Assembly: GCA_927443345.1 (NCBI GenBank)
Contig: CAKMKJ010000049.1
Span: 1 to 35,940 of the forward strand
Length of the DNA stretch: 35,940 nt
Source: an uncultured Anaerolineaceae bacterium
GTDB lineage: Bacteria; Chloroflexota; Anaerolineae; Anaerolineales; Anaerolineaceae
Direction of reading: 5' to 3'
The position numbers and the translations under genes are program-made. Numbering within the stretch: the first letter of the stretch is position 1; each line of letters begins with the position of its first letter. The notes under the pieces were generated by a model. It was not told where the DNA came from and ran no database searches. It saw nothing but the letters and a program-made list of their open reading frames with translations. Below, one piece after another: positions 34,753-35,940 of the stretch.

Positions 34753-35505
34753 ATGAAAAAAATCGCCCTCGCTCAAATGAATGTCGAATACGGCAACACA
34801 CAGAAGAACACCGCTGTTGGAAAACAATTAATTAATTCTGCTATCGAACAAAAATGTGATCTGGTGTTACTGCCCGAGTTATGGTCTACCGGCTTCGACT
34901 ACCATCATCTTGAAAAACATGCAGACCAAAATTTTTGGTTGATTACCTATTTACAAGAGCTGGCAAATTCTTCAAAGCTCACAATATGTGGATCTTTCAT
35001 CGAAAAACAAGGAAGCCTTTTTTATAATTCATTTAATACAATTCAACCAAAATTACCAAGGACACGTTATTTTAAGAATCATTTATTCAGCCTGATGCAT
35101 GAAGACAAGTATTTTACCGCCGGAGAAGTCTCCATTCCTTTCGGTTCATCACTGGGACAAACCGGCATGAGCATCTGTTTCGATTTGCGTTTTCCAGAAC
35201 TCTTTCTTGATATGAGACTTCATGGAGCAGAAGTATTTTTAATGACCGCACATTGGCCTCTGACACGCATAAACCATTGGGATGTTCTGCTACAAGCCCG
35301 TGCCATTGAAAATCAAGCCTATATGATCGCAGTCAATTCAGTTGGTCAAAGTGGAAAAGATGTTTACGGCGGACACAGCTCGATTATCGCCCCTGATGGT
35401 GAAATAATTTGTCGCGCACCTGCCGATGAAGAAGGTCTTTTTATCGCAGAAATTGACCCTGGCAAAGCAAAACACTTACGCGAAAAATTCGTCATGCGCC
35501 AATAA
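34753..35505 (+). CDS. Carbon-nitrogen hydrolase (nitrilase superfamily), omega-amidase-like
   Basis: 250-residue nitrilase-fold amidohydrolase. The catalytic triad is present: Glu42 (LLPELWSTGFDY), Lys108 (RTRYFKNHLF) and Cys142 (GMSICFDLRFPELF). FEATURES such as HWPLTRINHWDVLLQARAIENQ place it nearest the YafV/omega-amidase group that deaminates alpha-ketoglutaramate, but substrate is not certain. ATG 34753 is used; an in-frame TTG precedes it directly. The -10 lies so close that the message may begin at the start codon. No terminator of its own was seen before the insertion sequence, 20 bases past the stop. Confidence 0.92.
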   Translation: MKKIALAQMNVEYGNTQKNTAVGKQLINSAIEQKCDLVLLPELWSTGFDYHHLEKHADQNFWLITYLQELANSSKLTICGSFIEKQGSLFYNSFNTIQPKLPRTRYFKNHLFSLMHEDKYFTAGEVSIPFGSSLGQTGMSICFDLRFPELFLDMRLHGAEVFLMTAHWPLTRINHWDVLLQARAIENQAYMIAVNSVGQSGKDVYGGHSSIIAPDGEIICRAPADEEGLFIAEIDPGKAKHLREKFVMRQ

Positions 35506-35572
35506 AAATAGACGACCTCAATTATTGAACTGCCCCCTTTAAACAAGACAGAAAAAGAAAGACCCTAGTGAG

Positions 35573-35940
35573 TTAGATGGACAGACACCTAAGTTGATAA
35601 GGTGTCTGTCTTGTTTTTAATTGTATCCTTTCATAATTGTAAAAGAAAATGTAATCATTAATCGTTTGATTAACCTCCTCGAAAGTTGAATTGGGAAATT
35701 GGCGTAAACCTTCTTCTTTAAGATGACCGAAAAAGTTTTCCATAGGTGCATTGTCCCAACAGTTGCCACGCCTAGACATCGAAGGTGAAATGTTGTATTC
35801 TCTGGTTAGGGCAAAATATATCTGCGAAGAGTATTGATACCCTTGGTCACTGTGGAGGATCAGTCCATCAGTGACCACTTCTTTTTGTAAAGCTTTTTTC
35901 AAGGTATTTGCCACCAACCCTAGAGAATTTTGTTTTGCAA
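35573..35940 (-). CDS. IS3-family transposase OrfB, C-terminal part (5' truncated by window edge)
   Basis: C-terminal part of the integrase-like (rve, DDE) transposase. The frame is open to the right edge, so the TTG at 35917 is not the start. The second catalytic Asp is in ILHSDQGYQYSS and the Glu in NAPMENFFGHLKEE, with the conserved SRRGNCWDNA between and YNYERIQLKTRQTPYQ at the end. The first Asp and OrfA are outside the window. The C-terminal codons overlap the hairpin at 35580-35610. Confidence 0.93.
   Translation of the reverse strand, partial: AKQNSLGLVANTLKKALQKEVVTDGLILHSDQGYQYSSQIYFALTREYNISPSMSRRGNCWDNAPMENFFGHLKEEGLRQFPNSTFEEVNQTINDYIFFYNYERIQLKTRQTPYQLRCLSI
35580..35618 (+). 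terminator. Terminator-like hairpin just inside the IS end, reading inward
   Basis: An 11-bp perfect stem (35580-35590 with 35600-35610) is followed by TTGTTTTT on the plus strand only. It would stop transcripts coming from the nitrilase gene into the insertion sequence, antisense to the transposase. A 12-bp segment at 35541-35552 can instead pair with 35605-35616 and would break this stem. Confidence 0.7.

Follow-up and report, generated by a model that had tools for sequence, protein, structure and literature searches.

Background

In protection of the IS10/IS50 type, an RNA structure encoded by the element near its end blocks expression from outside transcripts that impinge on the element. 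The insertion sequence described here differs from these elements in that terminator-like hairpins with U-tracts are found at both of its ends and that the element lies inside a terminator which was split by the insertion. ISPsy8, IS1397 and ISKpn1 have been described as IS3-family elements that enter REP palindromes (PMC1525189). As reported there, ISPsy8 shares with the present element the family, a position on the symmetry axis of a predicted hairpin and a 3-bp duplication (PMC1525189). However, the targets of these three elements belong to one repeated sequence family, whereas the stems entered here vary and the terminator shape alone is common to them (PMC1525189).

IS1272/TnSha1, a member of the IS1182 family, is reported to insert into terminators with a partial loss of the stem, and its source describes hairpins that are targeted by structure, with no consensus in their primary sequence and with several established as terminators, which is a likeness to the sites found here (PMC4923244). 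In contrast to the present element, part of the stem is deleted by IS1272 and no target duplication is made (PMC4923244), whereas here the transposase belongs to another family, three base pairs of the loop are duplicated, and both terminator arms are present in the window copy when compared to the empty site of a related genome (G001), leaving the stem without a deletion. ISSau2, from the IS150 subgroup, resembles the element in its IS3-family OrfB with an integrase core and an upstream OrfA in an overlapping frame; the main text of the ISSau2 paper does not contain the word 'terminator' and thus reports neither terminator targeting nor terminators at the ends under that word (PMC5771124). 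No description of intrinsic terminator targeting by IS3-family elements was found in the literature searched, although one may be in print.

The window, i.e. the whole stretch of 35,940 nt analysed here, belongs to an uncultured Anaerolineaceae bacterium (contig CAKMKJ010000049.1) and ends within an insertion sequence that follows a nitrilase-type gene. A first-pass annotation had proposed that a hairpin near the element's end would block transcripts arriving from the nitrilase gene, that an alternative pairing excludes this hairpin as in an attenuator and may tune an antisense RNA to the transposase, or that the inner repeat may be a second transposase-binding site. The comparisons reported below argue, with considerable confidence, for an IS3-family element that would insert into the loops of intrinsic terminators and carry its own predicted inward-facing terminators.

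Results

The element and its insertion site

The features at the right end of the element are collected in Table 1. The window and contig C80 share an exact 141-nt overlap at their ends, and the OrfB protein joined across both contigs matches NF033516 (transpos_IS3) with 270.4 bits at a cut-off of 160 and contains the domains PF00665 (rve) and PF13276 (HTH_21), which places it in the IS3 family. The terminal repeats TGAACTG...CAGTTCA and the short duplications agree with this assignment, as IS3-family elements have TG...CA ends and duplications of 3-4 bp. The full ends are TGAACTGCCCCCTTTAAACAAGACAGAAAAAGAAAG on the right (window 35526-35561) and TGAACTGAACCCCAAATAATAGACACAAAAAGAAAG on the left (C80), where the partner repeat, compared by eye, reads TGAACTGAACCCC...AAAAAGAAAG; we take these ends to resemble those of IS150. 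In OrfB, 35 residues separate the last D from the E according to the protein alignment, a spacing that is presumably the integrase-core motif of the IS3 family. OrfA comprises 114 aa with a PF01527 (HTH_Tnp_1) helix-turn-helix domain (31.8 bits, cut-off 24.1), and the orfA and orfB frames overlap on C80. Programmed frameshifting is expected in the IS3 family, and a run of seven A near the overlap of OrfA with the upstream-extended OrfB frame (L002:580-924, minus strand) fits this expectation. By eye, no convincing -35 box was found for a circle-junction promoter formed from the two repeats. A search of plasmid DNA returned 77 records, none of which covered 80% of the query, and the best of the 20 listed covered 32%; several plasmid records among those listed bear an IS3 annotation.

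Table 1. Positions of the features described at the right end of the element and in the adjoining host DNA (window coordinates)
Feature	Position	Strand	Basis
Nitrilase-type (CN_hydrolase) host gene	34753..35505	+	PF00795, E 1.8e-50
Half of the split host terminator, AAATAGACGACCTCAATTAT	35506..35525	.	C47/C49 flank pair; intact terminator in G001
3-bp target duplication	35523..35525	.	TAT on +, ATA on the other strand
Right part of the IS3-family insertion sequence, continuing past the window edge	35526..35940	-	Remainder on contig C80
Right terminal inverted repeat, TGAACTGCCCCC...AAAAAGAAAG	35526..35561	.	Ends compared by eye
Upstream arm of the alternative pairing, a 12-mer (AAACAAGACAGA) without conservation	35541..35552	+	Inverted repeat; relatives compared
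3' part of orfB (transposase)	35573..35938	-	rve, rve_2 and rve_3 matches; stop codon 35573-35575
Inward-facing terminator-like hairpin, antisense to the transposase, 12 bp, 9-nt loop	35579..35611	+	Last orfB codons
Downstream arm of the alternative pairing, overlapping hairpin arm and U-tract	35605..35616	+	
U-tract of the predicted terminator, TTGTTTTT	35611..35618	+	Sequence

An empty site is available in G001, a genome of the same genus, in which the nitrilase orthologue (76% identity) is followed by AAAAAGACGATCTCAACTTATTGAGATCGTCTTTTTT and then by the convergent neighbour, which is likewise shared. On the side of the convergent gene, contig C47 and G001 agree at 81% of the DNA over 1,503 nt, and the relative of this gene forms the end of C47, the contig that also holds the remaining half of the host terminator. 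From this synteny and the intact site, the element of the window has entered the loop of the bidirectional terminator that separates two convergent genes. Paired from the contig ends, the insertion reads GAAAAAAGACGATTTCAAATA-IS-ATAATTGAGGTCGTCTATTTTTATT (C47/window). The duplication is visible in the C47 flank, which ends in ...TTTCAAATA ahead of the left end, and in the window flank, which is ATAATTGAGG when read outward. In G003, a second species of the genus, the gene order is as in G001, with a different hairpin-like sequence between the genes (by eye).

The flanks of all own copies are palindrome halves when read outward. The other two copies, ATAAAAAACGAACCCGGGTGAAAA-IS-AAAAACCGGGTTCGTTTTTTAT (C80/C24) and AAAAAAACCAGGGCATATAG-IS-TAGTTCTGGTTTTTTTGAT (C35/C9), lie in the loops of different palindromes with A/T tracts. 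For each own copy the two sides are on different contigs and were paired from contig ends, and the window copy is the sole one whose pairing (C47/C49) has synteny support; the duplications of the three copies, TAG, AAA(A) and ATA, likewise depend on matching contig ends. On C9 (L003 from about 250), recurring intergenic repeats carry unoccupied copies of the palindrome entered in C35/C9.

Inverted, fold-back joins within the insertion sequence are present at two contig ends of G000, C9:1-252 (L003) and C47:55831-56016 (L020), and at the C47 join one base near the junction departs from an exact fold-back. Real rearrangements were considered and set aside for these joins: the C47 join leads on into the host gene in reversed orientation, and the contigs have exact 141-nt ends in common. 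They are probably fold-back artefacts of the assembly or the library.

Two pairings at the right end

Both proposed pairings were recovered by an inverted-repeat search with 100% matching arms, namely the 11-bp hairpin (35580-35590 with 35600-35610) and the exact 12-nt alternative (35541-35552 with 35605-35616), whose upstream arm does lie inside the terminal repeat that has its left partner on C80. Shuffling 35526-35625 300 times with dinucleotides preserved gave exact inverted repeats of 10 at most, so that neither observed length was reached. The 12 bp listed for the hairpin in Table 1 include the outer G·U pair. The stem (-18.8 kcal/mol in isolation) is followed by the U-run UUGUUUUU, counted from 35611, so that the stable stem and U-tract of an intrinsic terminator are both present. 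This U-tract is on the strand of a transcript from the nitrilase gene, and the hairpin thus faces inward; on the opposite strand there is no U-run immediately past the stem. A simple terminator scan did not list the site because it allows loops of 3-8 nt and the loop has 9.

RNA folding predicts that the two structures exclude each other in one RNA of this copy, which is physically plausible and is a property of attenuators. The minimum free energy (MFE) structure of 35530-35640 contains the terminator hairpin (-23.6 kcal/mol, z -2.0, with 4 of 200 shuffles as good). In isolation, the alternative reaches -11.8 kcal/mol and is weaker than the hairpin. When other pairs are allowed, the terminator state at -23.6 kcal/mol and the alternative state at -23.0 kcal/mol are nearly equal, with mean pair probabilities of 0.785 and 0.189, respectively, and the alternative becomes the MFE structure when the chain ends at 35616 or 35620, i.e. 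for two of the five chain lengths folded. The exact complement, the near-equal energies and these two chain lengths are what would favour an attenuator in which the 12-nt repeat segment is the anti-terminator and the choice of structure tunes antisense RNA to the transposase. On the other hand, with just 9 nt between its arms the terminator should be the first to form, and no signal or leader was noticed in unsystematic reading of the sequence.

The decisive comparison is with related copies. The other two own copies are identical to the window copy in this region (100/100 nt for C9 and 72/72 for C24) and therefore say nothing on conservation. Seven copies from six other genomes, with OrfB identities of 46-69%, were compared instead. 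In all seven, the hairpin measures 12-13 bp and its tail is rich in T (4-6 of 8 positions). When the eight copies are aligned, 99.0% of the cells of the terminator hairpin are standard pairs, four pairs show a two-sided change, a number reached by 2 of 500 shuffles, and the covariation score is higher than in all 500; the count of further pair types was not unusual (138 of 500 shuffles). Compensatory two-sided changes are seen, for example, in L026, L027 and L135. The longest exact complement for the alternative pairing, in contrast, is 12 nt in the window copy and drops to 5-7 nt among the seven relatives. No two-sided change was found for this pairing among the eight copies, and none of its measures departs from those of the shuffles: 81.3% of its cells remain paired, a share that shuffled alignments match, and 5 of its 12 pairs depart solely through broken cells.

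The relatives thus keep and covary the one structure and lose the other, a pattern that the first-pass annotation had itself named as speaking against its proposal, and an attenuator that tunes antisense RNA is highly improbable. The 12-nt alternative is a peculiarity of this element and is unlikely to play any regulatory part. What the annotation had said of the hairpin itself holds: it covaries in the relatives, its U-tract is on the incoming strand, and it would act against transcription entering from the nitrilase gene. A second transposase-binding site in the copy of AAACAAGACAGA within the 3' codons of orfB was also considered and finds no support. The letters shared by the 12-mer and the 3' end of orfB lie in the codons for K-T-R-(Q/K)-T, which is conserved in three aligned OrfB proteins, and the likeness to the repeat is gone in L135 and L027.

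Proposed terminator targeting across related copies

A total of 111 loci was processed (L025-L052, L053-L132 and L133-L135), of which L053-L132 are 80 of at least 563 relatives; six further matches without a locus and the partial L136 were excluded. Seven loci without ends (L029, L037, L049, L080, L089, L094, L098) and ten with less than 40 nt on a side (L032, L036, L050, L065, L087, L101, L105, L106, L107, L123) were dropped. The 94 retained loci and the three own copies give 97 flank pairs, in which the ends of L133 and L134 were placed by hand and many others were called automatically, some of them surely wrong. The three own copies and the seven relatives compared above form the close clade. 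Close relatives are rare: at E 1e-52 they occur in 7 of 400 genomes of the order, the own genome included, and among 400 genomes drawn from the phylum a close match was found in the own genome alone.

A copy was regarded as having a terminator-type junction if its joined flanks had a stem score of at least 16 and a T/A tract. By this rule, whose thresholds were chosen after inspecting the flanks, 33 of the 97 copies qualify, compared to a rate of 2.8% at random positions (174 of 6,240) and of 7.1% in re-paired flanks (273 of 3,836). All ten copies of the close clade pass, the lowest being L027 with a score of 16.3. At a score of 20 the numbers are 28 of 97, 55 of 6,240 and 80 of 3,836, respectively, with nine of ten in the close clade. 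Where this could be checked, the stems in the flanks do not belong to the terminal repeats, since the same transposase is found with different flanks (the own copies, L025/L044, L100/L102/L104 and L127/L132). A duplication of at least 3 bp was called in four of the seven close relatives, the exceptions being L026, L133 and L134.

Folding energy proved to be a poor discriminator of targets. With a cut-off of -12 kcal/mol, 8 of the 10 copies of the close clade pass, compared to 91 of 280 control positions in their loci, and over all loci 46 of 97 copies, 1,193 of 4,160 random positions and 216 of 1,443 re-paired flanks. A rule combining fold and tail is passed by 25 of 97 copies, 215 of 1,916 re-paired flanks and 137 of 2,080 random positions. 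It is failed by the three own copies, L025 and L027, as their A/U tracts are apparently pulled into the stem.

The enrichment could also arise without any targeting if selection had removed the insertions at other places and terminators between genes were merely the tolerated sites. Insertions into intergenic terminator loops would be harmless, and only survivors are visible. However, the junctions lie within 14 nt of both palindrome arms, which is the limit of the score, and not anywhere in the spacer, and re-paired flanks taken from equivalent places, like random positions, pass the rule far less often than the copies. A further argument comes from the distribution of targets on the transposase tree.

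End hairpins and the OrfB tree

Hairpins with T-tails were scored at both ends of the 94 loci, a set in which the window's own right end is not counted. On the antisense strand of the right end, 37 of 94 reach a score of at least 20, compared to 5 of 376 internal orfB windows; the sense strand of these ends gives 7 of 94. At the left end, an inward hairpin with this score is found in 31 of 94 as against 0 of 376. The left hairpin of the window element (-21.6 kcal/mol, z -3.6, with 1 of 200 shuffles as good) lies just ahead of orfA, and its arms, with one mismatch, cover a Shine-Dalgarno-like AGGAGG and run into UUUUAUG. In elements from Bacillota, e.g. L132, L075, L088 and L113, one arm of the inward hairpin is supplied by the left terminal repeat, which in a transcript from outside would find its partner in an inverted copy within the element.

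Nearly all terminator targets and right-end hairpins fall in one branch of the OrfB tree. This tree has 95 rows, including near-identical ones (83 are different) and the window's own, and is rooted at the midpoint; its split into branches A and B has 100/100 support and was read off the drawn tree, not preset. Branch A (42 rows) contains no right hairpin and one terminator target, whereas branch B (53 rows, window included) contains 38 right hairpins and 30 terminator targets. The contrast is also seen among credibly called ends, defined by a repeat score of at least 18, lowered to 17 where a duplication is present, with L133 and L134 added. Here, branch B has the right hairpin in 27 of 33, the left hairpin in 28 of 33 and a target in 24 of 33, compared to 0, 1 and 1 of 33 in branch A; the left hairpins in this comparison are counted from a score of 15. 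In branch B, 32 loci have both hairpins, 5 the right only, 2 the left only and 13 neither. Among the labelled rows, no clustering of the HT label was detected (13 changes, shuffled mean 13.3).

The coupling between hairpin and target is incomplete. Of the 37 branch B loci that have a right hairpin, 12 do not pass the target rule, and four loci of this branch pass it without a scored right hairpin; among the 12, L081, L099, L100, L104 and L110 resemble terminator halves by eye. When targets are scored by folding energy, the association with the right hairpin is looser, at 24 of 37 loci carrying the hairpin and 19 of 57 lacking it. By a stem score of at least 20 alone, 5 of 42 copies in branch A (L040, L041, L045, L051, L085) and 28 of 55 in branch B qualify; palindrome insertion is therefore not exclusive to branch B. 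In L051 (G131, branch A), a palindrome with long arms, CCTCCCCCAAATACGAC...GTCGTATTTGGGGGAGG, is associated with a 3-bp duplication and has no T-tract.

For the selection of tolerated sites, branch A serves as a control that went through the same processing. By the terminator rule it scores 1 of 42, about the random rate, although the 5 of 42 by stem alone have to be kept in mind. Some contribution of selection against other sites is possible, yet the position of the junctions in loops and the low rate of branch A are hard to explain in this way, and an origin of the pattern without targeting is considered unlikely.

The tree also bears on the possibility that the right hairpin is a mere by-product of the codons for the conserved C-terminus (K-T-R-Q-T-P...R-C-L-S) and has no meaning at the RNA level. 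The hairpin lies wholly within orfB, and the peptide is conserved in three aligned proteins, which speaks for this explanation. Nevertheless, the two-sided compensatory changes, a different stem at a similar place in the Bacillota elements, the T-rich tail on the antisense side (37 compared to 7 of 94) and the lack of any score of 20 among the 42 elements of branch A all argue against it, and a by-product of coding is very unlikely.

Discussion

The reading preferred here, an element that enters terminator loops and brings terminators of its own, suggests a sequence of events. The transposase would prefer palindromic or extruded terminator DNA and would recognise it by shape. An insertion into the loop would pull the host terminator apart into its halves, and the hairpins at the ends of the element would then stop transcription arriving from each flank. 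At the right end, the transposase gene would be spared antisense transcription and the nitrilase mRNA would gain a new 3' end about 110 nt beyond its stop codon. At the left end, outside transcripts that would otherwise drive the transposase may be stopped or translationally silenced. The end hairpins probably replace the terminator that the insertion broke.

A broader proposal, advanced with less confidence but considered more likely than not, is that a deep IS3 branch comprising elements from the order of the window's host and from Bacillota couples a shape-aimed targeting of terminator loops with inward replacement terminators, which would insulate both the element and the host genes.

For annotation, gene 3' ends at such elements risk being misread as regulatory switches, and a neat alternative pairing in a single sequence can fall to a few relatives. 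If the proposal is true, the recognition of DNA shape by the transposase, be it a cruciform or a palindrome, becomes directly testable. It would also mean that a widespread clade lives in a near-harmless niche by entering non-coding DNA that most operons have and by supplying a substitute for it, which would help to explain the low-cost persistence of such elements.
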